NCBI GenBank assembly: GCA_021773795.1
Contig: JAJFJT010000015.1
Coordinates: forward strand, 62,001 to 126,000
Direction: 5' to 3'
DNA: 64,000 nt
From: Gammaproteobacteria bacterium
Lineage (GTDB): Bacteria > Pseudomonadota > Gammaproteobacteria > HK1
Every line of letters begins with the position of its first letter. Position 1 is the stretch's first letter. Shown here one piece after another: positions 10,818 through 42,909 of this stretch. The position numbers and the translations under genes are program-made. Below the pieces are notes generated by a model. It was not told where the DNA came from. It did not search any database and saw only the letters and a program-made list of their open reading frames with translations.

Positions 10818-10827
10818 TCCGCCTTGG

Positions 10828-10854
10828 CTAGCGGCCACGCAGAGAGGAACTTTA
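10828..10854 (-). promoter_or_regulatory. Sigma-28 promoter of fliC
   Basis: On the minus strand TAAAGTTC (10847-10854) is followed after exactly 11 bp by GCCGCTAG (10828-10835), against the consensus TAAAGTTT-N11-GCCGATAA. It lies 111 bp ahead of the flagellin start. FliA, released when FlgM is exported, should drive it. Confidence 0.85.
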
Positions 10855-10864
10855 GGCTTTATTT

Positions 10865-12064: not shown

Positions 12065-12067
12065 GGT

Positions 12068-14029
12068 TTATCTCCCAACGGCGTTGAGCAAATCAGAAAA
12101 CAGTTGATTGGCAGTGGAAATCACCTGAGCGCTGGCCTGATAGGCCTGCTGAAAGCGCAACAGATTCGCCGCCTCTTCATCCAGGTTGACGCCGGAGCTC
12201 GCCTCACGACGCTCGGTAACCTGACGCAACAAGGTGTCCTGTACCGCCACGCTGATTTCGGCCTGGCGCGTGAGCGTGCCGACCTCGGTCACCAATTGAC
12301 CATAACCCTCCTCCAGCGAGCTGCTACCACCGGTCAGCACGTTGGTGTTCTGGATTCCGGCGAGCAGCAGGGCATTACGGTTATCCCCCACGCCATTGCT
12401 GTTATCCCCGATGGTAAAGCTGTCGCCACTTTGCGGGACGCCGCTCACATTAAAACTGACGCCGCCATAGCCGGCAAAAGTGAAGCTCTTACCCACACTC
12501 TCAGTGGCAGGATCATAGGCAAGCGTACCCCCAGGGCCGTTGGTGACGGTAAAACCGGGGACGCCCGCGCCCAGCGCACTGGGGCTGAAAGTCAGCGTGA
12601 TGGTGCCACCGGAGCCCGAAAGCGGCAGATTGGTGGTGTTGGCCACTGATTCCCCACCGATAGTTCCACTGCCAAGATTAGCGATGGCCACCGCGGTCCG
12701 CAGTGGAGCAGCTGCAGCGATAATCCGTGGGTCACTGACGGCAAGATTAAAAGATCGTGCCGCTCTACGTGTTGGCTGGATGACGAAGCTGTCCCCGGGG
12801 GCAAAGGCACCAGCAGTAATGGCCCCCAGAGTAATGCCATCCACGGTCTCAGCACCCCCGGGAAAAGTAGTCAGCGTGGTCACATTATTATCGGACAGCC
12901 GGGTAAGGGTGTAATTCGTACCGTCATAATCCAACTGGTAGTCACTGGTAGTGAGCGCCGCAATATCACTCACAGTGGCCGTAAATTGGGGGGGTGGTGC
13001 GCCCATATTTTGTTGATTGGCAAGAACATTCGGTGCGGAGCTGTCAAGAGGCTGGAAAAAATCGCCACCCGCCACCCCGTTCAGATCAACGCCCAGCCGA
13101 TGCTGGAGATTGACCTCTACCGCCAGACCAATGGCGACCCGACCGATGGAATTTTCAGTCACATTGAGTATCTGATCACGAAAATCAAGAATTCCGGCCA
13201 GCTCCCCGCCGGTGAGAAAATCACTAATGGGCACACTGGTAGTGCCGGTTGTCAGTGCCACCTCTTCACGGCCCGGATCGAAGGCATTACGCACCACGTC
13301 CAGAATACCGATGCTGGTGCCCACCACCAGCGGCTGCCCTGAACCCACGCTGATATTCAGTGACCCGTCATCCTGCAGCAGAGTACGTACATTGATGCGT
13401 TCCGAAAGCTGCCGCACCAGTTCATCCCGTTGGTCCAACAGATCATTGGCGGGCTGCCCATTAGCAGCCCCCTGGGAAACTACAATCTGCTGATTTAAGT
13501 CGGAAATGCCCTGGGCAATGGAATTTACCTCTGCCACCACACTGCGCAAGCGTTCATTAGTCTCCGTACGCAAATCGCCCAGCCGTGCCGCCATTGAATG
13601 AAAGCGCTGAGCAAGGCTCTCCGCATTACCTAACAGAACCTGACGCGAGGCCGAGGAGCTCGGATCTGAACTCAGCTCCTGCAGTGACGAAAAATAGTCT
13701 TGCAAGGCTGGGCTCAAGCCACCATCAGGATCGGCAAGCAGGTTATCCACCTGGGCCGAAAGTTCCTGAAACACCTGAATCTGTTCACTGCCAGAGGTGC
13801 TCGAACGCACCTGCTCGGTGATAAAGCTGTCGAAAACACGACGAATACCGACTACCTCCACGCCCTTGCCGACAAAGCCATTGCCCTGCGCCTGCGGTGT
13901 CCGTGGGCCAAAATCCACCCGCTGACGGCTAAAGCCCGGGGTATTGGCATTGGAAATATTGTGTCCGGCGGTCGTCAAACCCCTACGGGCTGCCAGCAAG
14001 CCGGAGACGCCATTATCAAGAATCGACAT
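12068..14029 (-). CDS. flgK: Hook-filament junction protein FlgK (HAP1)
   Basis: FlgK has 653 residues, somewhat longer than the Salmonella protein. It forms the first junction ring on the hook. The N-terminus is that of rod/hook proteins (MSILDNGVSGLLAARRGL, TAGHNISNANTPGFSRQR) and the C-terminus has SGVNLDEEAANLLRFQQAYQ followed by ASAQVISTANQLF, the conserved axial helix. The extra length lies in the middle, surface-exposed region. It is followed immediately by flgL and preceded by flgJ, the classical flgJKL order. Confidence 0.95.
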   Translation of the reverse strand: MSILDNGVSGLLAARRGLTTAGHNISNANTPGFSRQRVDFGPRTPQAQGNGFVGKGVEVVGIRRVFDSFITEQVRSSTSGSEQIQVFQELSAQVDNLLADPDGGLSPALQDYFSSLQELSSDPSSSASRQVLLGNAESLAQRFHSMAARLGDLRTETNERLRSVVAEVNSIAQGISDLNQQIVVSQGAANGQPANDLLDQRDELVRQLSERINVRTLLQDDGSLNISVGSGQPLVVGTSIGILDVVRNAFDPGREEVALTTGTTSVPISDFLTGGELAGILDFRDQILNVTENSIGRVAIGLAVEVNLQHRLGVDLNGVAGGDFFQPLDSSAPNVLANQQNMGAPPPQFTATVSDIAALTTSDYQLDYDGTNYTLTRLSDNNVTTLTTFPGGAETVDGITLGAITAGAFAPGDSFVIQPTRRAARSFNLAVSDPRIIAAAAPLRTAVAIANLGSGTIGGESVANTTNLPLSGSGGTITLTFSPSALGAGVPGFTVTNGPGGTLAYDPATESVGKSFTFAGYGGVSFNVSGVPQSGDSFTIGDNSNGVGDNRNALLLAGIQNTNVLTGGSSSLEEGYGQLVTEVGTLTRQAEISVAVQDTLLRQVTERREASSGVNLDEEAANLLRFQQAYQASAQVISTANQLFSDLLNAVGR

Positions 14030-14042
14030 AAGTGCTTCCTCG

Positions 14043-14933
14043 CTAGTTCAGCGGCCCCCGCCCGGAATGCTTGATTCCGGCCATAGGCTCAGCCTGCATA
14101 AGTGCCAGGATTTTGGTGCCGTAATCAGGATCAGTGGCATACCCGGCTTGCTGCAAACCGTTCAGATAGGCGGCACCATTCTCGGCACTCGCCGCCACCG
14201 GTTGGTAGCGAGAGGAATCGAGGATGAAGCGGGTATAATCATCAAAACCCTGGGCGATAGATTTATAGGCGCGAAATTGGCCGCGGGTTTTAGTGAAGAC
14301 CCCTTGTCCGTATTCCACTGTGGGCACTCCCACGCGATCGCCCTGCCAACGGCTATCGGCCTTGATGCCGAAGAAATTGAAACTGGGCCGGCCTTGCGCA
14401 TCATGAATGACTGCCTGTCCCCAACCGGTTTCCAGTGCCGCCTGGGCAACCAGCACACGAGGCTCGATGCCAATCGCCGCTGCCGCCCGCCTGGCATGGG
14501 GCAAAACGGCATTCACAAAGGACTCCGGTGATTCAAATAAGGCCGTATGTCGACCAGCGTGCTCAGGCTGAACGCGCGATGGGCGCGACGACAAACCGGC
14601 CTTGGCATCAATTCCCGCCGGCACACGAATACCCGTAGCCCCCGATAACTGCCGCTCCAGAACTGCACTAAGGCCAATACCTTTGTCTGCGGACATTTGC
14701 AGGCTGATTTGATTGTCAAAGAGATCGCGGTACAGCTTCCCCTGATCACCGCCAAAAATCGGGTCACCGGGGGTGGCGTCACGCATGCTCTTTAACATCA
14801 TCTGCAGAAACAGCGCCTCGAACTGGCGTGCAACCTCCTTAGCCGCCTCCGGGGAATGTGCCCGTGCATCCGCGCGCAAGCCAGCAAAAGCAGAAAAATC
14901 GGTATAGGTATTGAGAGCAGCGGGTGTGCTCAC
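14043..14933 (-). CDS. flgJ: Peptidoglycan hydrolase and rod-capping protein FlgJ
   Basis: This 296-residue protein has the two-domain FlgJ layout. The N-terminal rod-binding part reads EVARQFEALFLQMMLKSMRDATPGD. The C-terminal glucosaminidase (GH73) part reads FVNAVLPHARRAAAAIGIEPRVLVAQAALETGWG across its start, with the catalytic Glu in AALETGWG, and later FFGIKADSRWQG. FlgJ opens the cell wall so the rod can pass through. It lies between flgI and flgK, with an AT-rich 54-bp gap (14934-14987) ahead of it. Confidence 0.95.
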   Translation of the reverse strand: MSTPAALNTYTDFSAFAGLRADARAHSPEAAKEVARQFEALFLQMMLKSMRDATPGDPIFGGDQGKLYRDLFDNQISLQMSADKGIGLSAVLERQLSGATGIRVPAGIDAKAGLSSRPSRVQPEHAGRHTALFESPESFVNAVLPHARRAAAAIGIEPRVLVAQAALETGWGQAVIHDAQGRPSFNFFGIKADSRWQGDRVGVPTVEYGQGVFTKTRGQFRAYKSIAQGFDDYTRFILDSSRYQPVAASAENGAAYLNGLQQAGYATDPDYGTKILALMQAEPMAGIKHSGRGPLN

Positions 14934-14987
14934 AGCGCATCACCAACAACTAATGCAGCATCGATATATATATAATATCCCATTGTT

Positions 14988-16118
14988 TTATATCACTATT
15001 AGTTGCGCTCTAAGTGCGCCTGCTTCCTTCAGCGCTTCCAGGATTGCGACCAAATCACCCGGTGCCGCACCCACCTGATTGATCGCCCTGACGATCTCGT
15101 CCAGGGCGATCCCCGGGGTGAACAGAAACATGCGGTTATTCTCTTCCCTCACTTCAATACGGGAGTTGGGCACCACCACAGTCTGCCCGCCCGCCAAGGG
15201 TGCCGGCTGGCTAACCCCGGTGACATTACTGATGGTGACCGACAGGCTGCCGTGGGTTACCGCCGCCGCCGTTACCCGCACATGGCGTCCAATCACCACC
15301 GTACCGGTACGGGAATTGACGATGACCTTGGCTGAGCCCTCTCCAGGCTCGAGTGAGACATTTTCCACCAGGGAAACAAAACTAACGCGTTGCCCTGCAT
15401 TACGCGGCGCATTAACCCGCACCGAAGTAGAATCAATAGCAGATGCAGCCCCCGCACCAACCTCTGTATTGATGGCATCTGCCAAGCGCTTGGAAGTCGT
15501 GAAATCCGGACGATGGAGATTCCACACCAGATAATCTTCGTGGCCAAACATCGTCGGTGCAGGGCGTTCCACACTGGCACCATTGGGAATTCTCCCGACG
15601 GTCGGAATATTTACCGTAATACGGTTGCCATCCTCGGTGGAGGCACCGAATCCACCCACCACCAGATTGCCCTGGGCAATGGCGTAGACCCGCCCATCGG
15701 CGCCCTTGAGCGGGGACATGATCAAGGTGCCACCACGCAGGCTCTTGGCGTTACCAATGGTGGACACCGTGACATCAATGTTTTGGCCCGGTTTAGCGAA
15801 GGGCGGCAAAATGCTGCTGAGACTGACGGCGGCAACATTTTTCAGCTGGGGGCTGACATTTGCCGGCAAGCTGATGCCATAACGGCTGAGCATGCTCTTC
15901 AGGCTTTGCACCGTAAATGGAGTCTGACCGGTCTGATCACCGGTGCCATTGAGCCCCACCACCAATCCGTAGCCAGCCAGTTGGTTGTCTCGAACGCCAG
16001 CAATAGTGGCGATATCCTTGACTCGTTCAGCCTGAGCTATACCAGTCACCAGCAACAGCGATACAAGGCCGGCGACACCTATCAGTTTGTTCCGGATATT
16101 CATGTTGCAATCTCGCAT
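14988..16118 (-). CDS. flgI: Flagellar P-ring protein FlgI
   Basis: FlgI forms the periplasmic P ring around the rod. ATG 16118 is chosen because GGTGAG lies 6 bp before it; ATG 16139 and ATG 16103 are alternatives. The product has about 376 residues, with a signal peptide ([19 protein letters not shown], cleavage before ERVKDIA) and the family sequences [24 protein letters not shown] (split), [20 protein letters not shown] and [15 protein letters not shown]. The end, [15 protein letters not shown], is typical. A 460-bp repeat-rich gap separates it from flgH, which is unusual within this operon. Confidence 0.95.
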
Positions 16119-16212
16119 TAGGAACTCACCCATCTTCATTGCAACTATCAGGCCAACTGCCGCTGTCGCTATTCAGCTTTTTAACGTTGAGGGAAGATCC
16201 ACAACCCCCTCC

Positions 16213-16274
16213 CGTCATCCCGACCACACCCCGCATCGTGGTGTGGGGCAGGCTGCGCGCGAGCCGGGACCCAG
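16213..16274. repeat. Palindromic intergenic repeat, CGTCATCCCG type
   Basis: The element starts CGTCATCCCG and ends GCCGGGACCCAGG, with an internal hairpin CCACACC/GGTGTGG. This resembles the dispersed CGTCATTCCCG...CGGGAATCCAG repeats found between genes in many proteobacteria. Only one copy was noticed in this window. Confidence 0.55.
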
Positions 16275-16456
16275 GGGACGGAGCCACGACGGTAGTGGGT
16301 CTTTAGCCTTCCGGGCTGGGATCATGAGCGACTACGCGCTTTGCTGACATGGTCTGGATCCTCGTCTACGCGAGCATGACTCGGGGTTGTTTGGGATGTA
16401 TGGGTGTGTAACGGGATTGTCCGGCCTATTTTGCCATTGCCGGAGTATGGCTATCT

Positions 16457-16560
16457 GTAGCCTGGATGAAACGAAGTGGAATCCGGGGCAGAGTCTGTGG
16501 CTAAGCCTCCGCGCGCCGATTCGACCTTCCCGGATTCCCCTTGCGCTACATCCGGGCTAC
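16457..16560. repeat. Large inverted repeat of REP/MITE-like type
   Basis: A 31-bp arm (16457-16487, GTAGCCTGGATG...GGAATCCGGG) is mirrored by a 32-bp arm (16529-16560, CCCGGATTCC...CATCCGGGCTAC) at about 80% identity around a 41-bp centre. The GTAGCCCGGATG...GGAATCCGGG pattern is a familiar dispersed repeat in gammaproteobacteria. It can form a long hairpin in the flgH-flgI transcript. Confidence 0.7.
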
Positions 16561-16599
16561 AGGCTGACTCCACGCCCACTGAGCTGAGTCATAAGGTGG

Positions 16600-17313
16600 T
16601 TAAAAGGGCAGAAGCGCCCCTACGAAGAATTTGGCTAGCCAACCAACCGCATTACTATCCGCTATGGCTCCTTCGCCGGCATAAATGATGCGAGCATTGG
16701 CCACCCGGGGAGAGGCAACGGAATTATTGGCATCGATATCAGCGGCCCGCACAATGCCGGAGAAACGGATGTGTTCGTGGCCCTGATTGAGGGTGAGGAT
16801 CTTCTCACCCTGCACCACCAAATTGCCGTTGGGCAGCACCTCCGCCACGGTAACCGTAATTTCACCCGTCAGGGAATTGCTCTGCACGCTCTCGGCCTCA
16901 CCATCAAAGGCATGGTTGGAGCCGAGAGAGGTACCCAGATTATTATTTCGAGTACTGGTCAACGGCAGCGCCCCGGGCAAATCAAACTGCGGGGTGGAAC
17001 CCAGAATGGTGGGATTGCTGATTGTCGTGGTATTGGTTTTGGTAAAGTCCGTCTCCGCCGTCTTGGAGGCATCGGTGCTCTCATTGAGGATGATGGTCAA
17101 CATATCCCCCACCAAGCGAGCCCGTTGGTCTTCAAACAGCGGTGCCGAGTAGCCGGCCTGAAAGATGGCACCATTGCGCGACTCCAGCGGTGGCATGGCA
17201 CTGGGACGAATCACGGCAAAGGCCGGGTCCCGTGTGGGTGCAGATTGGCAACCCACTAGCCCGACGAGGCCCATCAATAGCAAAACCCTCATTTTTCTGG
17301 CCGGAGAAAACAT
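16600..17313 (-). CDS. flgH: Flagellar L-ring lipoprotein FlgH
   Basis: FlgH (237 residues) forms the outer-membrane L ring. The N-terminus is a lipoprotein signal with lipobox LVGC (VLLLMGLVGLVGCQSAP), so the mature protein begins at that Cys. GAGG lies 8 bp before ATG 17313. Family sequences include YSAPLFEDQRARLVGDMLTI, LNESTDASK, GSNHAFDGE, LTGEITVTVAEVLPNGNLVV, GEKILTLNQGHEHIRFSGIV and the end WLAKFFVGALLPF. It follows flgG by 26 bp. Confidence 0.95.
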   Translation of the reverse strand: MFSPARKMRVLLLMGLVGLVGCQSAPTRDPAFAVIRPSAMPPLESRNGAIFQAGYSAPLFEDQRARLVGDMLTIILNESTDASKTAETDFTKTNTTTISNPTILGSTPQFDLPGALPLTSTRNNNLGTSLGSNHAFDGEAESVQSNSLTGEITVTVAEVLPNGNLVVQGEKILTLNQGHEHIRFSGIVRAADIDANNSVASPRVANARIIYAGEGAIADSNAVGWLAKFFVGALLPF

Positions 17314-33878: not shown

Positions 33879-33955
33879 GCCCCGGTAGCTCAGTTGGATA
33901 GAGCGTCCCCCTCCTAAGGGGAAGGCCGGGGGTTCGAATCCTCCCCGGGGCGCCA
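33879..33955 (+). tRNA. tRNA-Arg (anticodon CCT), integration target
   Basis: The 77-nt tRNA is complete: acceptor GCCCCGG/CCGGGGC, D arm AGTTGGATA, anticodon stem TCCCC/GGGGA with loop CTCCTAA (anticodon CCT, reads AGG), T arm with TTCGAAT, discriminator G and encoded CCA. Its 3' half, from within the anticodon stem to just past CCA, is duplicated at 42863-42909. The element has therefore inserted here and the attL copy restores a working tRNA. Confidence 0.95.
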
Positions 33956-33956
33956 T
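33910..33956 (+). repeat. attL of the integrated element
   Basis: These 47 bp are identical to 42863-42909: they begin CCTCCTAAGGGG in the anticodon region and end GGGGCGCCAT one base past the CCA. The flanks differ at both ends (C before and T after here; T before and A after at the right copy), so the repeat length is exact. Integration at a tRNA 3' half is typical of tyrosine integrases. Confidence 0.93.
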
Positions 33957-33978
33957 TCCTTAGGTACAATTGGCAGCG

Positions 33979-33997
33979 GTGCTACCCCGGTGCTACC
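33979..33997. promoter_or_regulatory. Integrase arm-type sites near attL
   Basis: GTGCTACC occurs twice (33979-33986, 33990-33997), 11 bp apart in direct orientation. The same pair with the same spacing lies near attR. Paired direct repeats next to both attachment cores are expected of arm-type sites bound by the N-terminal domain of a tyrosine integrase. Confidence 0.6.
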
Positions 33998-34013
33998 TTT
34001 TGGAGACATAGCC

Positions 34014-34220
34014 ATGGTCCGCAGGGCTCACCGATTTTCCTACCACGGCCGCGACCTCACCCTACGTGAGATCGCGAAAGATGCTGGCCTTAACCTCTGG
34101 ACATTGCGATCTCGCCTCAGCCGCGGCTGGACCATCGAGCGCGCTGCCACCACCAGTACCATCGACCCATCCGAATGCGGCCGCCTGGGCCGTGCAAAAT
34201 CTGGTTGGATCGGCTCATAA
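34014..34220 (+). CDS. Small basic helix-turn-helix-like protein next to attL
   Basis: ATG 34014 follows TGGAG by a suitable spacing and opens a 68-residue, strongly basic protein. The middle (LTLREIAKDAGLNLWTLRSR, then LSRGWTIERAAT) looks like the short DNA-binding module seen at the C-terminus of phage homing-type and AP2-like proteins: a helix-turn-helix followed by a GWSIEKA-like end. I do not recognise the exact family. It is read toward the element's interior, ends at a terminator and lies beside attL, so a role as excision factor or regulator is possible but unproven. Confidence 0.6.
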   Translation: MVRRAHRFSYHGRDLTLREIAKDAGLNLWTLRSRLSRGWTIERAATTSTIDPSECGRLGRAKSGWIGS

Positions 34221-34249
34221 AAAAACCCACCATTTGAAGCGGGTTTTTT
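34220..34249. terminator. Bidirectional terminator
   Basis: AAAAAACCC (34220-34228) pairs with GGGTTTTTT (34241-34249) around a 12-nt loop. Each strand ends in a T run, so it can stop the small HTH gene from the left and the tail-Z gene from the right. Confidence 0.8.
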
Positions 34250-34280
34250 ATACATCCGGTTTCCCGGGAAACGGCGAGGG

Positions 34281-34850
34281 TTAGCGCGGCCTCATCAGCT
34301 TTTTGATCCGGAACTCGAACTCGTGCTTGAGGAAAGCGGGATACTTGGAGCGCATGACATCGCGCTGAACTCTCTGGACGATGCTTGTTGCCCCAGGTAG
34401 TAGCGGGATGGTCTGCTTCTTGATAGGAAGGCGCGCCCTCCCCTTGCGTTTGAACACGGTACGCCCGCCACCTGGCATGGTGGCAAAAAAGCCGCCAGGT
34501 ACAAAGTGGCCGCCGGCCTTTACCCCGTGTTTATTCTGTTTTCCGCCAGCTGCACGAACGCTGATTCCGCGCACACCCAGCCACAGGCGCGCCCATGTGT
34601 TCGAGGGGCTGGCAAGGCGGATCCGGATACGGCGGCGGATGAGCTTTTGCTGGACACCGCTCTCGTCCGAGACCTCGCGCACAATATCCGTGCGCGCCTT
34701 CCTTACCGTTTTGTTGAGCGCTGCAGAAATAGCCTGGGTGGCCACCTTGTTGGCCTTTGGGCCGAACAAGCGTAGCGTGCGCTTGAACTCCCGCTCATCG
34801 ATCTCAAACTCAGCTTTTACACTGAGCCGTCCCGGGATTTGAATCGCCAT
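34281..34850 (-). CDS. Phage minor tail protein Z-like
   Basis: The 189-residue basic protein resembles minor tail protein Z of lambda-like phages: FEIDEREFKRTLRLFGPKAN, ATQAISAALNKTVRKARTDI and VREVSDESGVQQKLIRRRIR, then a Gly-rich part (GGHFVPGGFFATMPGGGRTV). Protein Z helps finish the tail end that joins the head. Its ATG shares an A with the stop of the tape-measure-like gene (TGATG), so the two are coupled. No other tail genes are seen, so its job in this element is unclear. Confidence 0.7.
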   Translation of the reverse strand: MAIQIPGRLSVKAEFEIDEREFKRTLRLFGPKANKVATQAISAALNKTVRKARTDIVREVSDESGVQQKLIRRRIRIRLASPSNTWARLWLGVRGISVRAAGGKQNKHGVKAGGHFVPGGFFATMPGGGRTVFKRKGRARLPIKKQTIPLLPGATSIVQRVQRDVMRSKYPAFLKHEFEFRIKKLMRPR

Positions 34851-36025
34851 CAGGTCGCAAACGCCGTGTTGTCCTTGTTCACGAGCCTCTTCAAAAGCCC
34901 AACCATTTCAGCGAATTCTGGCGCAGCGACTTTTTGCACAGCACCTGGGCCAAAGCTGTTGAGTGAGGTCCGGGAAAGATCGATTTCACGGAAAGCCCTG
35001 TGAACGCGAACAGAAGGGGAAGGCGAAAGGGAAAGCCCCGCTAGCGGGTTTTTTGCCTTTGTGGTTGTTTTCGAAGCCGCCTGGAAGAACTTCGAGGTAT
35101 CGATAACCCCGCTTTGCGTTTCCTTTTTGACGCGATCGACCAGCCCCAGCAAGCCCTTACCACTGTCAAATGCCTCTTTGGAAAAGGCTTGCAGGTCTTT
35201 GGCGGCCTCCTTGAACCCGAATAGCGAGGCAAAATCACCGGCAACACTCGACCCGAACGAGCCAACCAGGTTGTAAAACTGCCTCACGGACCGGGCGGTT
35301 GCTGCCGCGATGTCCGCGAAGACCGTTAAGGCCGGTGACACAAGCTTCGTTAAATCTTCGGCCATCGCCCCAAATGATTCATTCATCTTCTGGACGGCGT
35401 CGTTGGTTTCGGCGATAGCCTTCACATCCTTAAGGCTCAGGGTTTTCCCCAGGGCATCGGCAGATGCCATCATCTCCCGGAGTCCTTTGGAGCCATCTGC
35501 AAGAGCCGGTAGCAGCTCGATACCTGCCCGCCCAAAAATCTTGTAGGAAATGGCTGCCTTGTCGGTCTGAGACTTCACGCCCTTGAGGGCGTCCGCCAGC
35601 ACCATCAGTTTGTTTTCAGGCTTCAGCCCCTTGAATTGTTTGAGGTGTATGCCTAACGACTGGAATGCGGTTTTGGCTAACCCGGTGCCGGCGGCGGCAT
35701 CCGCAGTATTGACCTCGAGCTTTTCAAGGCTTTTGGCGAGCGTACCGAAGGAAAATCCTGATAGCTCCGATACCACGCGCAGCTGCGAAAGGGCCTCAGC
35801 GGAAGCGCCTATCTTGGTATTGAGTTTTTCAATCTGGTCCCCTGCCCTGAGCGCTTCACGCGACATAGCCACGAAACCGACAGCGATAGCGCCGACAGCC
35901 AGGTTTTTCAGAGACAAAGCCGTATTCTTGAATCCCGCCATTGAGTTTCTTGCTTGCTTTATTCCCGTCTGGAACTGGCTTGAATCTGCCCGCATTTTGA
36001 CGGTAAGGCTTGAGATGTTACCCAT
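34850..36025 (-). CDS. Short tail tape-measure-like protein
   Basis: ATG 36025 (MGNISSLTVKMRADSSQFQT) follows GGAG with an 8-bp gap; the frame is open 72 bp further upstream. The 391-residue product starts like tape-measure proteins (GIKQARNSMAGFKNTALSLK), has a hydrophobic segment near residues 44-56 (LAVGAIAVGFVAM) and helical Ala/Leu-rich repeats, including FGRAGIELLPALADGSKGLR. Full tape-measure proteins usually run from 700 to over 1000 residues, so this would specify a very short tail or act otherwise. It is coupled to the tail-Z-like gene. Confidence 0.7.
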   Translation of the reverse strand: MGNISSLTVKMRADSSQFQTGIKQARNSMAGFKNTALSLKNLAVGAIAVGFVAMSREALRAGDQIEKLNTKIGASAEALSQLRVVSELSGFSFGTLAKSLEKLEVNTADAAAGTGLAKTAFQSLGIHLKQFKGLKPENKLMVLADALKGVKSQTDKAAISYKIFGRAGIELLPALADGSKGLREMMASADALGKTLSLKDVKAIAETNDAVQKMNESFGAMAEDLTKLVSPALTVFADIAAATARSVRQFYNLVGSFGSSVAGDFASLFGFKEAAKDLQAFSKEAFDSGKGLLGLVDRVKKETQSGVIDTSKFFQAASKTTTKAKNPLAGLSLSPSPSVRVHRAFREIDLSRTSLNSFGPGAVQKVAAPEFAEMVGLLKRLVNKDNTAFAT

Positions 36026-36067
36026 TTCAGTGGCTCCTGGTAGCTTGTGATTTAGGAAGCAGATCGC

Positions 36068-36286
36068 ATGCGCGGCATTTGCTGCGGTCACGGCCACCCA
36101 CCCGGTGCCCGCGAAATCCCAGCCATGTACGGCAAGTCAACTTCCAACGGACGCCACAACGGCAAGGCGCAACGTCTCCGATTCTCCATTTACTCATGTG
36201 TCACCTTAAAAAACCCCCGTGTTGCCCTCATTGAGGGGAAGGCATCGGGAGGGGGATCCCATGGTTGGCAACCCATGGCCCGGTGA
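36068..36286 (+). CDS. Possible small ORF of unknown function, plus strand
   Basis: ATG 36068 with AGGAAG 9 bp upstream opens 72 codons on the strand opposite to the surrounding genes. The product is basic (GKSTSNGRHNGKAQRLRFSI near the middle, end GWQPMAR). It fills the 272-bp gap between the tape-measure-like start and the capsid hairpin, where no minus-strand gene is seen. I do not recognise a family with certainty, and it may not be expressed. Confidence 0.3.
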   Translation: MRGICCGHGHPPGAREIPAMYGKSTSNGRHNGKAQRLRFSIYSCVTLKNPRVALIEGKASGGGSHGWQPMAR

Positions 36287-36297
36287 TATGCCATGCA

Positions 36298-36334
36298 CCG
36301 TCGGCGGCACACATCACTTAGAAGCCGCCGACGG
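36298..36334 (-). terminator. Strong hairpin after the capsid gene
   Basis: CCGTCGGCGGC (36298-36308) and GCCGCCGACGG (36324-36334) form a perfect 11-bp GC-rich stem with a 15-nt loop directly after the capsid stop. No T run follows on the minus strand, so termination would need help; mRNA protection is another role. Confidence 0.6.
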
Positions 36335-38146
36335 TTAGGCAGTAACGGCGTCCTGGATGGCCGCGAAGGACTGAGGATGGCGAACGGAAATATCCACATC
36401 GAAAAACGCGGTCACTCGCACACCACCGGTGGAACTCAGGCTGTATGGATCGACCAGGATATCGAGCACGCCCCATTCACCGATCAGCAGGTCGGCAAAG
36501 TTCCCGTAGAGGATGGCGGAGAGGTTGGTACCGGTACCCTTGGTAAGGTTGCCCGGGACCTGGTTGGACACGGCCGCACGGATCCCCAGCAACCGGCCAT
36601 CCGTGAGTACGCCACCTTCCCAAACAAACCCCGCGCCGGCATCGCCGGAGACCTTCAGAGTCTTCAGCAATTTGGCACGGGTCACGGTGTTGACGAGGAA
36701 GCCGAGCGATCCTTGATCCGCATTGTCGGCCCCAAGCTCCTGCCCCAGGTCAACGATCAGATCGTAGGTTGGCACGCCTCCATTCGTTCCGATAGGCACG
36801 TCACCAATGCCGGAGGTGTTGAGAATTCCCGTGGGCTGCTCACCGGTACCCGAGCCATTGATGCAGACCCGATCGATTTCAAGCGCCACGGTGGTGGCCA
36901 GGTCATTACGAACGAAGCTTTCCGCATCGATGGACGATTGCTTCAAAAACCGCCGGGTGTATTCCGCGAGACCCGCCACGGATTTCGGCCTCAGGGCGAC
37001 CTGGTCAAAGGCCGCCTGACTCTCGGTGGGCGCGGCGCCTTCCGCAACCCAGTAGGCAGTCGATCCGCTGGTCTGGCGTGGAATATCTACGTTGCCCTGC
37101 AGATCCCTGAGGAAGGTAGCGCCCAGGCCGGCGACTTGCGCTTTGTTTCTCAGAACATCGATGAAGGAAGCGGACAGAAGATCCGTCGACACCAGGTGCC
37201 CGCCTGCGGTATCCGTTCCAACGTTCAGATCTCGCCGTTGAGGCACGGGGCACGGAACGAACACGCCTCGCGGAGGCCGACGCAACATTCGCGAAAGATG
37301 TTCGGAAGTTTCGATAGCCCGAGCGTAATCCCCCCCCCTATGATCAATCTGCATGTTGATCGCATCCAGGAAGGAAGAGCTCGCCTCGTTACCCATGCCG
37401 AAATTATCATCCATGATGGGCGCGGGGTGAGCACCGCCGAGTTTCGCGAGCACGGTGTTGCGGAAGCTTTCCGCAGAGCGGCCTTCCTGGATGGCGGCCA
37501 GTCCGAGATCGACAAAATCATGGTCCCTCGCAATGGCCATTATCTCTTGGACGCGGAACTCGGCCGTCTCGCGGAGTTTGTTCTCGCGGCGCCGTTGGCT
37601 CCGGGACGGCAAATCATCATCCTGGGTCGGTTCAATTGCTTGGTTGTTTTCCATTGTCCTATTACCTCGTGAAGTAAATTCGGCGGACCGGAATAGGCCC
37701 GCGTTTGGATCGGCACCAACACCTGTCGCGCTGACTTCGTTGACGGTCCAATCCGTAAATCGATAAACATCGCCACTCTCTCGAACGGGATCGCTGTTCA
37801 GGCTATAACCCACGGACAGATCGGTAATGTTGCCGGCAAGCATGTCGGCAAATCGCTCCTGTGCTTCCGTGGATTCTCCGCAGTGAATGTCACCACGCAG
37901 CTTTTTTCCTTCCACGCGGATATTGCGAACCCGGCCAAGCACGTTATTGAGATCGTGGCCCCAAAGAAGTGGGAGACCACGTGTAGCGCGGGACAAGTCA
38001 ACGCTACCAGGGGAGTGATCCAAAACCTCAATACCGTATCCGCGCTTGACGCCGGTCTCGGTCGAAAGGACGGAGGGAATTACTTTCTTCTTGCGGTCGG
38101 CAGCCCGGATGTCCAGGCTGACGGTTCTAAAAAGTGTTTCGCTCAT
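36335..38146 (-). CDS. Fused prohead protease and HK97-fold major capsid protein
   Basis: The 603-residue protein joins two phage head functions in one chain. Residues 1-160 match the caudoviral prohead serine protease: H64 in LPLLWGHDLNNVLGRV and S111 in ITDLSVGYSLN are the expected catalytic His and Ser. A charged, helical stretch (about 185-285, SRSQRRRENKLRETAEFRVQ) resembles the scaffolding delta domain. The rest is HK97-type capsid: GGHLVSTDLLSASFIDVLRN, AYWVAEGAAPTESQAAF, LKQSSIDAESFVRNDLA, INGSGTGEQPTGILN and LLGIRAAVSNQVP. In HK97 these are separate genes. It is the clearest phage structural gene in the element. Confidence 0.9.
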   Translation of the reverse strand: MSETLFRTVSLDIRAADRKKKVIPSVLSTETGVKRGYGIEVLDHSPGSVDLSRATRGLPLLWGHDLNNVLGRVRNIRVEGKKLRGDIHCGESTEAQERFADMLAGNITDLSVGYSLNSDPVRESGDVYRFTDWTVNEVSATGVGADPNAGLFRSAEFTSRGNRTMENNQAIEPTQDDDLPSRSQRRRENKLRETAEFRVQEIMAIARDHDFVDLGLAAIQEGRSAESFRNTVLAKLGGAHPAPIMDDNFGMGNEASSSFLDAINMQIDHRGGDYARAIETSEHLSRMLRRPPRGVFVPCPVPQRRDLNVGTDTAGGHLVSTDLLSASFIDVLRNKAQVAGLGATFLRDLQGNVDIPRQTSGSTAYWVAEGAAPTESQAAFDQVALRPKSVAGLAEYTRRFLKQSSIDAESFVRNDLATTVALEIDRVCINGSGTGEQPTGILNTSGIGDVPIGTNGGVPTYDLIVDLGQELGADNADQGSLGFLVNTVTRAKLLKTLKVSGDAGAGFVWEGGVLTDGRLLGIRAAVSNQVPGNLTKGTGTNLSAILYGNFADLLIGEWGVLDILVDPYSLSSTGGVRVTAFFDVDISVRHPQSFAAIQDAVTA

Positions 38147-38183
38147 CGCTAACTCCTAAAAGCTCGCGCTTGCTGAAACGCAA

Positions 38184-38265
38184 AGAGGCGGAGCCCCAGC
38201 AAGCGCATCAAGCAGCAGCCACAAAGTGGGTGCCATCTGTGCACGTCGCCGAAGACTCCGCCTCT
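38184..38265. repeat. Inverted repeat upstream of the capsid gene
   Basis: AGAGGCGGAG (38184-38193) and CTCCGCCTCT (38256-38265) are perfect 10-bp arms 62 bp apart. They lie in the 266-bp gene-free gap (38147-38412) ahead of the capsid gene, which otherwise shows no ORF. A regulatory structure in the capsid leader is possible. Confidence 0.4.
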
Positions 38266-38412
38266 CTGGAGGGGTCATCTTCCGTCCATCCCGTGGGCCT
38301 GGCCTGGTGGCGGCAGGCAAGCGCGAAGCATTGCCCTCGTAACCAAGCGTCTCCACAGGAGGAAAGACGTCCTAAGGGTCAATCTAAATCTTTTTTTTAT
38401 AGAACGCCACAC

Positions 38413-38673
38413 TTAATGTACCGGCGCATCTGATTGCATGCGTTTGGCATCTTCTGCAAGGTCGATAGCCGCCATTTTTACCCGTGCTGCCGCCTCGGTT
38501 GGCGTCAGTGGCCCGATCATATGCGTGAATACAATCTGCCGATGTTCGACTGCTACTACCGCCAGAGTTTTCGTGTGCTCACAATAGACAGAGACACAGT
38601 TTTCTTTTTTATGAGCGTGGAGATGGTCATACAGATCAGTGACACACGCGCTGCACAATTTTGGCTGGTTCAT
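38413..38673 (-). CDS. Small Cys-containing protein of unknown function
   Basis: The 86-residue product opens MNQPKLCSACVTDLYDHLHA and has four cysteines (C7, C10, C26, C31), arranged like a small zinc-binding ribbon. GGAGGAGG lies just upstream of ATG 38673. Its start overlaps the end of the upstream small gene by 4 bp. I do not recognise it. Its place between the origin-like repeats and the capsid suggests an element-specific regulatory or packaging role, but this is inference. Confidence 0.65.
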   Translation of the reverse strand: MNQPKLCSACVTDLYDHLHAHKKENCVSVYCEHTKTLAVVAVEHRQIVFTHMIGPLTPTEAAARVKMAAIDLAEDAKRMQSDAPVH

Positions 38674-38861
38674 TTGAGAGCCTCCTCCGCTAGCAGTAGA
38701 TCCATATATGCGATGATGTACGCCCGCTCATCTTTAGAAAGGTTTTCCATCTGTTGGCTAAAGTGTTGAATCTCCCAGGCAGACGGCGCCTCCGATCTTT
38801 TTATATTTGGATTGCCACCAACGATTCGAAGGTGGGGTTTCTTTGGGGCTGTCTCTTGCAT
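38670..38861 (-). CDS. Small protein of unknown function
   Basis: ATG 38861 (MQETAPKKPHLRIVGGN) is preceded by GAGGAG and gives 63 residues; an upstream in-frame start at 38879 is less likely. The C-terminal half is a probable helix pair (LSKDERAYIIAYMDLLLAEE). It overlaps the next gene by 4 bp and so is coupled to it. Function unknown. Confidence 0.6.
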   Translation of the reverse strand: MQETAPKKPHLRIVGGNPNIKRSEAPSAWEIQHFSQQMENLSKDERAYIIAYMDLLLAEEALK

Positions 38862-38969
38862 AGTGCTCTCCTCAATCAACTCGTGAACCCATATCCAGAA
38901 TCCTCACAGCTAGCTAAAACTCGCGAGTATCTTGCCCGTGAGGTGGCTTATCTAGGGAGGACCCGCTAG

Positions 38970-39212
38970 CTAAAACATCGACCGTTCGAATTCGGCCGCA
39001 TCTTCGGCCCAATCCTTTTGAATTTGTTCTTCGAGTCGTTCCCACTCCCCATCCATCTCCCCATCATATTTTCCTTCACCCTGGTCAGCTGAAATCACTC
39101 CCGTGGCGATCAGCCCCTTCACGTGAGAAATAATTTCTTTCCTCCGTTCCTTCATCTTCCGTTCAACTGCAATCGAAAGGTTTTTCTGTAGTACTTCTGT
39201 ATCGATGCTCAT
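38970..39212 (-). CDS. Small charged protein of unknown function
   Basis: ATG 39212 (MSIDTEVLQKNLSIAVERKM) with GGAGAAG upstream gives 80 residues: a basic helix (KMKERRKEIISHVKGLI), then a very acidic C-terminus (EWERLEEQIQKDWAEDAAEF). The frame is open to 39257, but that part lies in the iteron-like repeats. Function unknown; position beside the repeats makes a replication or regulatory role conceivable. Confidence 0.55.
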   Translation of the reverse strand: MSIDTEVLQKNLSIAVERKMKERRKEIISHVKGLIATGVISADQGEGKYDGEMDGEWERLEEQIQKDWAEDAAEFERSMF

Positions 39213-39240
39213 GCTCTTCTCCTGGTCGCCTATACAAACG

Positions 39241-39396
39241 ATGGCCACCTTGGCCACCTATACATAAAAGGTAGTAGTAGTAAGGGTTTCACTTGGCCAC
39301 CTTCACTTGGCCGTCTTGGCCGTCTTGGCCGTCTTCCGAAATGCGGCGAAGGTGGCCAAGGTGTCCAAGTTTTGATGGCAGGGGATCTTGGCCACC
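39241..39396. repeat. Cluster of nine 9-bp iteron-like repeats (possible replication origin)
   Basis: The motif TTGGCC(A/G)(C/T)C occurs at 39241 (one mismatch), 39250, 39293, 39307, 39316, 39325 and 39388 on the plus strand and inverted at 39351 and 39360 (the last with one mismatch). Three copies are in perfect 9-bp tandem (39307-39333). Opposed copies let 39315-39369 fold into a long hairpin. The cluster fills the gap between the ATPase gene and the next small gene, as expected of an origin bound by its replication protein. A regulatory operator array is the alternative. Confidence 0.6.
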
Positions 39397-39397
39397 T

Positions 39398-40423
39398 TCA
39401 TGGTTTAAGATCCATAGGATGGGTGGTACTTGGTAACTCCCAGAGCCAGTCACCATTGGCGCCCGTTGATTTAATCGAATTTACGTCCAGGGCTTTTTTG
39501 GCGCGACGTATCGTCCTACGTGCGATATGCGCACGCGCAGCGCGACTCTCTAATTCCTTTTGAGCCATCGGTCCGTGTGCTAGCTCTTCAGTAAGCCAAC
39601 TCTTTGCTTCACCCATTTTCGATGCGCGCACAGGATGGGCTGCTTCCAGCGCCGATGATGCGTCGATAAAGACAGGATCATCCTCCCAAGCAATCATGGG
39701 CGCACCGGTTTCTTGAGAAACCACGATTCTGTAGGCAAGCCCGCCTTGGTCAGTCCCCAGGTTGTTCTTGACGGGCAGAAATAAGCGCCTATCTGGATCC
39801 GCTCCATCTTTCGTCACTAAAAACGCAGCTCGCACCGTGGCGACAAATGCCAGGCTTCCAGATGTTCTATAAAGAGCATTGGTTCCGCTGGCTTTATTCA
39901 GATGGCTCACTAGCAATACAGCAACACCAAACTTTGCAGCCGTATCAACTAATGGCATAAGCAGACTGCGAACGTCCGCATTATTATGAGTGTCCGTTCC
40001 AGAGAGATAGGCAGATATTGGATCAATAATCACCAGCCTGGTATCAGGTTTTTTTCGTAAACATAGTTCCAGCGCTGCAATATCCTCAGCCAGGGAAAAG
40101 TAATGCTCCTTTTTACCCTCGTCCTCGCTGAACGTTTCAACACATTTGACGCAATGAATATTTTCCACATTTGCACCGGCCGCATCGAGGCGAATGCGGA
40201 TTGTGTCAGCAGGGTCATCCTCTGCCGACATCATTATCACGTCGCCTTTGGGGGAACCGATATCACCTTCCGGCCATCTGCCGCCCGTGGATACGATGGC
40301 CGCTATATAGGTGGTGATAAGTGATTTTCCGAGCCCCGGGTCTCCAGCGATAAGAACCGGCTTACCTAAAGGAATTTTTCCTGGCCAAAGCCACTCAACT
40401 GGCTTTGGTTCAACGCTCGCCAT
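39398..40423 (-). CDS. RepA-like/DnaB-like AAA ATPase
   Basis: The 341-residue protein has a RecA-like ATPase core: Walker A GDPGLGKS (27-34), GDVIMMSAEDDPADTIRIR, Walker B LVIIDPISAYLSG, and LLVSHLNKASGTNALYRTSG. This is the RepA/AAA_25 type found in plasmid and satellite replication modules, where it acts as a hexameric helicase or loader. The C-terminal part (about 270-330) looks like a winged helix. The start ATG 40423 has only a weak ribosome-binding site and lies 41 bp past the HTH gene. No primase is encoded in the element. Confidence 0.8.
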   Translation of the reverse strand: MASVEPKPVEWLWPGKIPLGKPVLIAGDPGLGKSLITTYIAAIVSTGGRWPEGDIGSPKGDVIMMSAEDDPADTIRIRLDAAGANVENIHCVKCVETFSEDEGKKEHYFSLAEDIAALELCLRKKPDTRLVIIDPISAYLSGTDTHNNADVRSLLMPLVDTAAKFGVAVLLVSHLNKASGTNALYRTSGSLAFVATVRAAFLVTKDGADPDRRLFLPVKNNLGTDQGGLAYRIVVSQETGAPMIAWEDDPVFIDASSALEAAHPVRASKMGEAKSWLTEELAHGPMAQKELESRAARAHIARRTIRRAKKALDVNSIKSTGANGDWLWELPSTTHPMDLKP

Positions 40424-40463
40424 GCATACAGTGAGCAGCTCAACAAATAACGGGTGGTTAGAT

Positions 40464-40694
40464 TTATTTATGAGCCTGACTCCGCGTGGGAGAAGGATGG
40501 ACGGTGCGCTGTTCTATGAAAGCATCGAGGTCAGAGCGACGATAATAAACGCGCCGGCCAATCTTGATGAACGGAAGGTTATAGCGGCCTGTGCTGGCCC
40601 ATATTTCAAGCGTCGCCAGAGCCAAGCCCAGGTAATCGGCAGCCTCTTTTCGGCTTAGACGATCATTGTTAAAAGCGATTTTTTTTACAGACAT
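40464..40694 (-). CDS. Small MerR/excisionase-type HTH protein
   Basis: The 76-residue protein has an HTH_17 motif (RLSRKEAADYLGLALATLEI, then FIKIGRRVYYRRSDLDAFIE), the fold of excisionases and small plasmid regulators. Its start shares a base with the alpA stop (TAATG), so the pair is coupled. It may serve as excision factor or as regulator of the ATPase gene that follows. Confidence 0.8.
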   Translation of the reverse strand: MSVKKIAFNNDRLSRKEAADYLGLALATLEIWASTGRYNLPFIKIGRRVYYRRSDLDAFIEQRTVHPSPTRSQAHK

Positions 40695-40900
40695 TATTCC
40701 ACCTCATCAGTTGCCTTAGGTGGCGCCGCTATTTTTTTCAAATAGTCGGCAATGGCTGATTCACGCCAAGCGACTTGCCCGCCCGTCATCTTAAGCGGCG
40801 CAGGAAAGGTTCCCGCCCGAACGCGCCGAAAAATAGTAGATTGGGATCCGTACCCGAGTTGCTGCAGGTCGGCGTAGCTGAGTAGTTTTAGGTTTTCCAT
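40694..40900 (-). CDS. alpA: AlpA family regulator
   Basis: The 68-residue protein matches AlpA: LLSYADLQQLGYGSQSTIFR, then VRAGTFPAPLKMTGGQVAWR and ESAIADYLKKIAA. AlpA proteins control integrase or excision in P4-like elements, and AlpA is a hallmark regulator of Gram-negative phage-inducible islands. GGAG lies 6 bp upstream of ATG 40900. Confidence 0.85.
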   Translation of the reverse strand: MENLKLLSYADLQQLGYGSQSTIFRRVRAGTFPAPLKMTGGQVAWRESAIADYLKKIAAPPKATDEVE

Positions 40901-40969
40901 TGGTTGCTCCTAACGAACGATGCAAGCCAATGGTAGGTATTGATTACAGAGGGGTCATTCCAAGAATTC

Positions 40970-41488
40970 TCAGTATTTCTCAGAATGGCGCTTAAGCATG
41001 TTTAGATATTCGTAGTAAAGGTTTTTCGCATCGCCCTCACTCACGCTGAATTTTTTAGCCGCAGCGGGCCATAATTCGCTAAGTGGCTCTTCTTCATTTC
41101 GGCGATATATAAAGTTGAAAATTCGGGCGATTAACGGCATCCCATCAAACCTCTTTAGCCGCCGTTGTATTTGCTCTAAGTGCGCGCCTTTGCGGTGTGG
41201 GATATTGAAGGCTTCACCGAACTCGCGCACCTCCCAATCGCTCCAGCGTCTAAGCCCGGACTCCAGTTCCTCCCGCACCCAACTAGGCGCCGCAATCCGA
41301 TATTGGGCACAACGCCGAAGGGCCTCAAAAAGCATGAGGGTGTTGCCCTGGTTATAGGCGTCCTGGCAATCCTTTAGGTCCTTAAGGGCCACGTCAGAGG
41401 CCCAACACCACCCCAGCCCAGATTCCACGAACTGGCCAGTTCCCAGATTCGCAAACTTCTTCTTGAGCTCTTCAATGCTTCCCTTCAT
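40970..41488 (-). CDS. Protein of unknown function downstream of integrase
   Basis: ATG 41488 (MKGSIEELKKKFANLGTGQF) with AAGGAG six bases upstream gives 172 residues; ATG 41494 and a longer open frame reaching 41545 are alternatives. It overlaps the integrase 3' end by 17 bp. The product is soluble, helical and rich in charged residues and Trp (GWCWASDVALKDLKDCQDAY, LWPAAAKKFSVSEGDA). I recognise no family. Coupling to int suggests control of integration or copy number, or a cargo role. Confidence 0.65.
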   Translation of the reverse strand: MKGSIEELKKKFANLGTGQFVESGLGWCWASDVALKDLKDCQDAYNQGNTLMLFEALRRCAQYRIAAPSWVREELESGLRRWSDWEVREFGEAFNIPHRKGAHLEQIQRRLKRFDGMPLIARIFNFIYRRNEEEPLSELWPAAAKKFSVSEGDAKNLYYEYLNMLKRHSEKY

Positions 41489-42683
41489 GTCCATCTCCTT
41501 GGATAAGTTCACCGCTTCCCGTATCCGCAACCCCGCCGGCGGCAAACATCGCCCGGGCGGCGGTATTCACCGCCTTTCGCACCGGGTCCAGGCTCAGGCG
41601 CGCGTAGATCGCCGTCGTACTTACATTCTTATGCGCCAGGGTCTTGCCGATGATAGGCAAGCTCGCACCGGTTGCCGCTTGCCAGCTTCCGAGCGTGCGC
41701 CTGAGATCATGAATACGAAGATCCTCGATTTCGGCACGCTGTAGCAGCGATTTCCAAGCGCGGCGCATCTCTGTGAGATGGCCGGTCTTGCCGGTTCCTG
41801 GAAAAACCCACTCTGTTTGCGCTTCCTCCGCGCGAAGTTTGAGAATAGCCAGCGCCTCCGGCGCGAGCGGCACGGTATGTGGCTCTCCACTCTTGGTCTT
41901 GGGGATCCGCCAGGTGGCCCGCTCCCGGTTGATATCGGCCCAACGCATCGCCTGCAGATTACCTCGGCGCGCACCGGTCAAGAGCGCCAGCAATACAAAA
42001 TCGCGAAAGGTGGGATTTGATTCGTAGGCGAGCGCCTGGAAAAAACGCGGCATTTCATCAGGATGTAGGAAGCGATCCCGGGAGCGCTCTGGAAAGCGAT
42101 CAATATGGGCGCCCGGATTCTCGCCCTCGAAATCGCCCCAATAAAGTGCGCGGTTAAACATCGCGCGAAGCAAGGCCGTTGCCTTGTTCGCGCTTGCGCC
42201 GCTCCTTTTTGCGGCTATCTCCGCATGCAGGTTCTGTACCTCGGTGCGTTTAATCCGAGAGAGCTTGCGGGGGCCCCACGGCACAAAATAGCGGCGGTAA
42301 TAGGATTCCGGGTTCTTGGTTTGCATGCCGCGCGCCCGGATGTGCTGTTTCAGGTACTTCTGGAATAGCTCTTCCAGGGTAAGTTCCGTTCTCGCGGCAC
42401 GTTTGGCGGCCTGGGGATTCTCAGATGCAGCAATCTGTCCGTTGTACTGCTCTGCCGCATTGCGGGCCTGGTCGACCGTAGTTCCAGGAAAGCGCCCAAT
42501 GAAGATCCGTTCCGGCCTACCGTCGACTTTTCGGTACAGGTAAAATGAGCGCGTTCCCTTGCCAGTGATGCAGAGCGCGAGGTGAGGCATCCCGGCATCA
42601 TAGTAGTATTGCCGCTTGCCCTTTTCCGGGGGTACAAGATGGTCTATCCGGGTACGGGTGAAGTTAAAACGACGCTCGCTCAT
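41472..42683 (-). CDS. int: Tyrosine integrase of the element
   Basis: The 403-residue protein is a P4/DUF4102-type tyrosine recombinase: an N-terminal arm-binding domain (RQYYYDAGMPHLALCITGKG, IFIGRFPGTTVDQARNAAEQ), a core-binding domain, then the catalytic residues R239 (LTGARRGNLQAM), H325 and R328 (IHDLRRTLGS), H351 (LAHKNVSTTAIYARL) and the nucleophile Y360. It is complete and appears active. It lies beside attR, facing inward. A putative promoter and paired arm-type sites lie between it and attR. Confidence 0.95.
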   Translation of the reverse strand: MSERRFNFTRTRIDHLVPPEKGKRQYYYDAGMPHLALCITGKGTRSFYLYRKVDGRPERIFIGRFPGTTVDQARNAAEQYNGQIAASENPQAAKRAARTELTLEELFQKYLKQHIRARGMQTKNPESYYRRYFVPWGPRKLSRIKRTEVQNLHAEIAAKRSGASANKATALLRAMFNRALYWGDFEGENPGAHIDRFPERSRDRFLHPDEMPRFFQALAYESNPTFRDFVLLALLTGARRGNLQAMRWADINRERATWRIPKTKSGEPHTVPLAPEALAILKLRAEEAQTEWVFPGTGKTGHLTEMRRAWKSLLQRAEIEDLRIHDLRRTLGSWQAATGASLPIIGKTLAHKNVSTTAIYARLSLDPVRKAVNTAARAMFAAGGVADTGSGELIQGDGHEGKH

Positions 42684-42702
42684 GCGGCCCTCCCCTCTTT
42701 CA

Positions 42703-42767
42703 GTGCTACCCTGGTGCTACCCGAAAACGCAGGTTTAAGTAAACTTCACAAAGTTTACGGGTAGCAC
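42703..42767. promoter_or_regulatory. Integrase arm-type sites and operator-like palindrome near attR
   Basis: GTGCTACCC occurs at 42703-42711 and 42714-42722, 11 bp apart as near attL, and inverted at 42759-42767. Between them GTAAACTT (42739-42746) and AAGTTTAC (42751-42758) form a perfect palindrome with a 4-bp centre. The array lies in the integrase leader, so integrase or AlpA binding here could also control int. Confidence 0.6.
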
Positions 42768-42777
42768 AGCCAGGAGA

Positions 42778-42806
42778 AGAATAGGCTTAAGCGTTTGTTT
42801 TGTAAA
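42778..42806 (-). promoter_or_regulatory. Putative promoter of int
   Basis: On the minus strand TTTACA (42801-42806) and TATTCT (42778-42783) are exactly 17 bp apart. The predicted start near 42771 puts the palindrome and arm-type repeats inside the int leader. Confidence 0.5.
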
Positions 42807-42862
42807 GCTTCATATGGTTGGGGAAAGGGAAAGGTAGACCAATAAAACGCAGGCGCAAGTTT

Positions 42863-42909
42863 CCTCCTAAGGGGAAGGCCGGGGGTTCGAATCCTCCCCG
42901 GGGCGCCAT
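42863..42909 (+). repeat. attR of the integrated element
   Basis: This 47-bp sequence is an exact copy of 33910-33956 and carries only the 3' half of tRNA-Arg, without D arm or 5' acceptor strand, so it is not a tRNA gene. It marks the right end of the element; psd follows. Confidence 0.93.

Follow-up and report, generated by a model that had tools for sequence, protein, structure and literature searches.

Among phage satellites, P4 and the Staphylococcus aureus pathogenicity islands (SaPIs) shrink the head of their helper by small factors or a capsid homologue, capsid-forming phage-inducible chromosomal islands (cfPICIs) bring a full head-and-packaging kit, and phage-inducible chromosomal minimalist islands (PICMIs) leave the particle alone. 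Here we describe an 8,953-bp insertion at 33957-42909 of a 64,000-nt stretch of gammaproteobacterial DNA (contig JAJFJT010000015.1; the whole stretch is called the window), hereafter the tRNA-Arg element. Judging by its genes, we lean slightly towards reading it as a phage satellite that joins the backbone of a Gram-negative phage-inducible chromosomal island (PICI) to a late cassette for a capsid, a tape measure and a tail-completion protein, and that would borrow the portal, motor, tail tube and tip of a helper.

With Gram-negative PICIs the element shares the int-alpA-replication-iteron order, the tRNA site and a size of about 9 kb, and it differs from them in lacking a recognised terS and in adding shell, tape-measure and gpZ genes. 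Like cfPICIs it is integrative and brings a protease and an HK97 capsid of its own, but unlike them it has neither terminase subunits nor a portal and adds a tape measure. Four cfPICI-like loci from Gamma- and Alphaproteobacteria (L193, L254, L256 and L258; integrase, terminase, capsid, portal) were rejected as elements of the same kind since they look like ordinary cfPICIs; their terminase-like genes and portals were seen by inspection of open reading frames (ORFs) and confirmed with hidden Markov models (HMMs) in L254. The Ccm protein of SaPIbov5 is a capsid homologue that is mixed into helper shells and redirects helper heads (PMC8569155). It is likewise a satellite-encoded HK97-fold capsid homologue, but SaPIbov5 has no identified protease and Ccm forms no shells alone, whereas in the tRNA-Arg element the protease is fused to the capsid and a tape measure and a gpZ homologue are added. 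The fused protease speaks for a greater autonomy of the predicted shell than that of Ccm. PICMIs share int, an int-overlapping gene, alpA, a replication gene and the minimal size; they lie next to fis in Vibrionaceae, with DUF3987/DUF5906 primases and without capsid genes (PMC10803314), whereas we found an AAA_25 ATPase, tRNA-Arg and a capsid instead. MulchRoom and MiniFlayer are also satellites with their own capsid, but they keep both terminase subunits and the portal and have no primase, which is the opposite split of functions (PMC10690885). The best phage matches of the capsid (33-46% identity) belong to phages with a fused protease-capsid of the same family, such as Synechococcus S-LBS1 and Roseobacter CRP-811. 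Unlike the tRNA-Arg element, these have full sets of terminase, portal, neck, tube and tip genes. The element thus resembles a PICI with packaging redirection swapped for virion parts, and it is neither a cfPICI nor a PICMI. In the literature searched, outside which most subscription journals lie, no report of a satellite with its own tail-length ruler was found, and we regard the novelty of a shell plus tape-measure set as provisional.

Integration site and acquisition

The borders of the element are as follows.

33879-33955: tRNA-Arg(CCT) (ARAGORN; the Rfam tRNA model spans 33879-33952)
33910..33956, plus strand: attL, a 47-nt core formed by the 3' end of tRNA-Arg(CCT) (repeat search)
42863..42909, plus strand: attR, an identical repeat of the 47-nt core; the flanks meet at a single copy in the congeners G111 and G228

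The two direct repeats are 100% identical. Both congeners have an empty attB with one repeat copy at the same tRNA, and the two flanks of the element are joined there at 65-86% DNA identity. Therefore, the element was gained as a whole unit and is not a prophage decaying in place. A full prophage at this locus, which an earlier note on this DNA had named as the case that would reduce the element to a deletion derivative, was looked for and not seen in the relatives available. As in PICIs, an integrase gene goes with att repeats and a specific chromosomal site. The G+C content of the element (55.0%) matches that of its flanks (54.3% and 55.0%), so composition gives no sign of a recent arrival. 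Every recognised gene except one short ORF lies on the minus strand.

Integration and replication genes

41472..42683, minus strand: tyrosine integrase, 403 aa (PF00589 1.4e-26; Arm-DNA-bind_3; phrog_1 2e-67)
40970..41488, minus strand: 172-aa ORF overlapping the 3' end of int by 17 nt (alternative longer TTG start at 41545)
40694..40900, minus strand: AlpA, 68 aa (PF05930 2.3e-5, which passes the curated cut-off)
40464..40694, minus strand: HTH_17 DNA-binding protein, 76 aa (PF12728 6e-12)
39398..40423, minus strand: AAA_25 replication-type ATPase, 341 aa (PF13481 1e-34; phrog_10729 primase family 7e-17)
39235..39400, unstranded: iteron-like repeats (families D1-D3), putative origin

These genes have the int-alpA-rep-ori order of Gram-negative PICIs, with alpA, a replication gene and iterons at the putative origin. 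The sequence TTGGCC[AG][CT]CTT occurs five times in direct and once in inverted orientation at 39293-39398, adjoining the end of the ATPase gene. The 172-aa ORF had no family match in the profile scans; by analogy it may correspond to the PICMI gene 'iolg' (PMC10803314), which it resembles in position and overlap. The packaging-redirection gene terS of Gram-negative PICIs gave no match above noise in the element, the HTH_17 ORF reaching phrog_57 only at E 0.025.

The late cassette

36335..38146, minus strand: prohead protease, delta-type helical segment and HK97 capsid fused in one protein, 603 aa (profiles, AlphaFold2 model)
34850..36022, minus strand: short tape-measure protein, 390 aa from an ATG with Shine-Dalgarno sequence (415 aa if the GTG at 36097 is used)
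34281..34850, minus strand: gpZ-type tail-completion/neck protein, 189 aa (PF06763 1e-14; phrog_27 1.5e-31)

The fusion protein matches S78 (1.5e-9) and Phage_capsid (2e-46) in Pfam and phrog_617 (6e-126) in PHROGs. The protease domain is confident in its AlphaFold2 model (pTM 0.48), which also shows a helical linker and an HK97 core. The best PDB structure match found by Foldseek was the capsid of siphophage R4C (8gta, 1.6e-19); the capsid of the cfPICI EcCI2 as well as gene-transfer-agent and encapsulin shells were also among the matches. His64 and Ser111 are invariant throughout the capsid alignment, and we infer that they form the catalytic pair of the fused protease. Phage members of phrog_617 are likewise single-gene protease-capsids, so the fusion is normal for this capsid family and does not mark satellites. 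Directly upstream of the capsid gene, these phages have the portal and terminase genes.

The tape measure matches phrog_9483 (4e-39) over only the N-terminal ~250 positions of phage tape measures. Counted from the first ATG or equivalent, it is the shortest among 46 complete homologues, with 391 codons compared with 497-1593 in the other 45 (median 632). As a protein query it found no relatives among viral contigs. The gpZ start codon overlaps the tape-measure stop codon (TGATG), and phrog_27 is annotated as 'tail completion or Neck1'. In the neck of 80alpha a gpZ-type protein, the tape measure and DNA are in mutual contact (PMC11661146). By this analogy, the two genes plausibly encode physical partners.

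No Pfam or PHROG model of terminase or portal scored above noise in any ORF scanned, and the set of terminase, portal, tail tube and tip, and lysis genes that marks a complete temperate phage is lacking. The earlier note had described a capsid-encoding, terminase-less element between exact 47-bp att repeats at tRNA-Arg, with an intact tyrosine integrase, AlpA, a replication-type ATPase with iterons in the order known from Gram-negative islands, a protease-capsid fusion, short tape-measure-like and tail-Z-like proteins, and no terminase, portal or lysis gene. This description agrees with the empty congener sites, the repeat, ARAGORN and Rfam searches, the ORF list and the Pfam and PHROG matches given above. 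Its statement that no connector is present was slightly too strong, as the gpZ homologue is itself a neck/tail-completion protein.

Related elements without terminase

Profiles built here for TerL (the large terminase subunit), portal, capsid, integrase, tape measure, gpZ, ATPase and a small CxxC protein described below were run on all fetched loci; those for TerL and portal were derived from fusion-type phages. Where upstream sequence is available, almost all fusion-capsid loci have a portal and usually a terminase. Seven exceptions carry an integrase without TerL or portal (L099, L102, L104, L106, L108, L111 and L142). Three elements with a capsid that is not of the fusion type also fit, namely L189 (genome G363), L253 (genome G576) and the circular viral contig L313. 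For L189 and L253, as well as for the portal-bearing L250 and L280 described below, the absence of TerL was also read from the ORF lists, and L313 was scanned with Pfam and PHROGs. The search for the same kind of genes at other tRNAs that had been proposed with the earlier claims did find independent elements, several with a tape measure directly after the capsid, which strengthens the earlier interpretation. Their hosts are other Gamma- and Betaproteobacteria and Desulfobacterota, the sites are mostly tRNAs, and most have replication genes. The following could be delimited.

L111: 9,026 bp, 56-bp repeats
L142: 9,736 bp, tRNA-Sec, 31-bp repeat
L189: 9,606 bp, tRNA-Ser, 15-bp repeat
L253: about 9.43 kb, adjoining tRNA-Leu, 16-bp repeat only
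L313 (IMGVR_UViG_3300032215_001034): circular, 9,028 bp; viral contig of 9,151 bp whose ends overlap by 123 bp

L313 encodes an AAA_25 ATPase, a capsid without protease, an HTH protein, an integrase and a DnaJ-domain protein, and the Pfam and PHROG scans found no terminase or portal in it. The elements L099, L102, L104, L106 and L108 are incomplete; L102 comes from the cultured Desulfobulbus elongatus DSM 2908 and L104 from the cultured Nitrosospira sp. Nsp11. A tRNA-Ala lies beside the integrase gene in L104 and a tRNA-Lys in L106; no far border was found for either, the contig of L104 stopping inside the element. Including the tRNA-Arg element, the six elements of defined size measure 8.95-9.74 kb. 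If the phages of the family have T=7 heads, which is assumed here, a T=3 head would take ~28% of their 30-35 kb genomes, or 8.5-10 kb; three to four element copies per full-size head would also fit. Both figures are arithmetic and not evidence. Just past the right att repeat of L111 a second integrase gene begins (L111 15559-16998), which suggests tandem elements at one site.

The capsid and tape-measure genes lie close together in these elements. The two frames are separated by 202 nt in the tRNA-Arg element, by 249 nt in L108 and by 134 nt in L189 (entered as L082 in the gap table). The next smallest gap is 1,764 nt among 66 other capsid loci, mostly phages and including some short contigs where a portal is not visible. 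In L104, inspection by eye found a frame with a tape-measure-like N-terminus 12 nt past the capsid stop, the contig ending after 54 codons. On a different contig of the same genome (Nitrosospira sp. Nsp11) lies L215, a siphophage prophage with capsid, a 1138-aa tape measure and tail genes; it is a possible helper candidate for L104. The tape measures belong to different families, phrog_9483 in the tRNA-Arg element and L108, phrog_2854 in L189, TMP_3 in L280 and TMP_2 in L250. In the tape-measure tree, which has many long branches, L108 pairs with a phage sequence (100% SH-aLRT), and the three satellite rows form no group of their own.

A quick tree of 98 capsids had shown a satellite-only clade of five including the tRNA-Arg element (85%), which was rejected since it is absent from the careful tree of 49 rows. 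In the careful tree the starred branches require four changes or more and give the tRNA-Arg element no firm position; the firm satellite-only pairs are L104 with L106 and L108 with L111 (100/100). Therefore, we claim no single origin; on this phylogeny, such elements captured capsids repeatedly, with several separate origins. L104 and L106 have capsids of 54% and integrases of 55% identity, different tRNAs and open frames throughout. The terminase-less state thus persisted through about 46% protein divergence, and repeated independent decay is a poor explanation.

Two alphaproteobacterial elements carry a portal besides capsid and tape measure, and TerL was not found in either. L250 (genome G551, 3079-13174) is a ~10.1-kb element with an 18-bp repeat at tRNA-Arg(CCT) and encodes replication initiators, the TMP_2 tape measure, a capsid, a portal, an HTH protein and an integrase. 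L280 (genome G466, 1995-17271) measures ~15.3 kb, lies at tRNA-Ser and encodes an integrase, a portal, a protease-capsid fusion followed directly by the TMP_3 tape measure, and a Schlafen AlbA_2 protein. It is quite possible, if short of probable, that recurrent, polyphyletic satellites re-specify the whole geometry of the helper virion with their own shell and tail ruler, with or without a portal, and borrow the motor and tail body, the tape-measure families differing as if fitted to different helpers.

Other candidates were set aside. L179 (genome G057, 5285-13412), a PICI-like element, lies at tRNA-Thr. Its backbone matches that of the tRNA-Arg element, with the ATPases about 50% and the integrases 34% identical, which counts in favour of the satellite reading; L179 was rejected as a sister element owing to a terminase-small-like gene (called by eye) and the lack of a capsid. 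L183/L133 and most other capsid loci were rejected as satellites since they are phages with a portal. The ATPase as query gave one match in viral contigs, at 31% identity.

Proposed mechanism and alternative explanations

In the mechanism that we propose, a helper siphophage enters or is induced and the element would excise through its integrase with AlpA, by analogy to PICMIs (PMC10803314), and replicate from the iterons by means of the ATPase. The fusion protein would build or co-build a prohead around the helper portal, which the helper terminase would fill. The tape measure and the gpZ homologue would substitute for those of the helper, so that tube and tip of the helper would be assembled to a satellite-determined length and would hold the end of the satellite DNA. 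The likely product would be either a small particle that carries about 9 kb or a head of full size containing a concatemer. If this is true, satellites can control tail length, and possibly how DNA is injected, besides the size of the head, and capsid genes that have no terminase or portal nearby merit a check before they are filed as prophage debris. Moreover, which assembly parts satellites must own and which they can borrow becomes testable.

Several points weigh against the satellite reading. Mobilisation, particles and helper are inferred here from genes alone. The host genome contains no PF04860 portal and no PF03354 TerL, the only two Pfam families searched; the helper would thus probably come from outside or belong to another family, and a resident helper prophage is unlikely. 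Near full-length tape measures in L189 (719 aa) and L108 (621 aa, open at the contig end) mean that a shorter tail is not a family rule, and the agreement in size around 9 kb is based on six elements only. In addition, the tape measure of the tRNA-Arg element lacks the conserved C-terminal GERGPELFVPD region and the capsid branch is long in the trees, both of which may reflect relaxed selection just as readily as adaptation, and one end of the element carries an HNH fragment.

The last three of these points, together with the lack of a resident portal or TerL of the two families, would also be expected if the element were a cryptic remnant, that is, a prophage or cfPICI-like satellite stripped of terminase, portal and tail genes by deletion, with capsid, tape measure and gpZ homologue now being lost. 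We consider this unlikely, though it deserves serious attention. The empty congener sites show the gain of a whole unit, and the reduced gene set recurs in other elements, including the pair L104 and L106 that diverged without terminase. Furthermore, the gpZ gene follows the tape measure, whereas it stands between capsid and tape measure in the annotated relative Persinger. The earlier statement that all genes are uninterrupted, which was taken to argue against simple decay, stands for the late genes: their frames are open with normal codon-position composition, capsid and tape-measure genes have ribosome sites, and the tape measure-gpZ junction is coupled by TGATG. Early decay is still another possible reading of the shortened tape measure.

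A different function of the same cassette would be assembly poisoning, in which capsid, truncated tape measure and gpZ homologue are dominant-negative and ruin the virions of the helper or of competitors while the element spreads in unmodified helper particles. Interference at the assembly stage does occur in satellites and prophages: SaPIbov5 Ccm strongly reduces helper titres (PMC8569155) and Tab blocks tails via the tape measure (PMC10884400). A tape measure cut at its C-terminus could plausibly act as a poison. However, the capsid gene still encodes the protease domain, the tape measures of L108 and L189 are almost full-length, and the additional portal of L250 and L280 fits building better than poisoning, which makes this explanation improbable. 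HK97-fold shells have also been put to use by cells, and gene-transfer-agent and encapsulin shells were among the Foldseek matches; an immobile domesticated shell serving the cell, either an encapsulin-like compartment or a gene-transfer-agent relic, is nevertheless hardly credible given the integrase, AlpA, the exact att repeats, the empty congener sites, the circular relative L313 and the lack of cargo or gene-transfer-agent tail genes.

Further features of the element

38970..39257, minus strand: 95-aa ORF, no family above cut-off in Pfam and further profile scans
38670..38879, minus strand: 69-aa ORF (ORF call, PHROGs scan)
38413..38673, minus strand: 86-aa CxxC ... CxH protein (HMM built here; alignment)
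34215..34247, minus strand: terminator-like hairpin AAAAAACCCGC...GTGGGTTTTTTT (fold -23.4 kcal/mol, z -1.8)
34014..34220, plus strand: 68-aa ORF like the C-terminal DNA-binding part of HNH endonucleases (phrog_1065 6e-7; phrog_3377 8.7e-6)

In the tRNA-Arg element, L104, L106 and L111, the capsid gene is closely preceded by the gene for a CxxC...CxH protein of 83-113 aa, the copy of L106 being recovered with a profile from the other three members. The protein matched no Pfam or NCBIfam family and was found neither in the screened phage loci nor in 397 other genomes of the phylum searched. Its AlphaFold2 model is weak (pLDDT 67), and a role in regulating capsid or late expression is speculative. 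The HNH-like ORF beside attL is possibly a remnant of older cargo, and the terminator-like hairpin lies downstream of the late genes.

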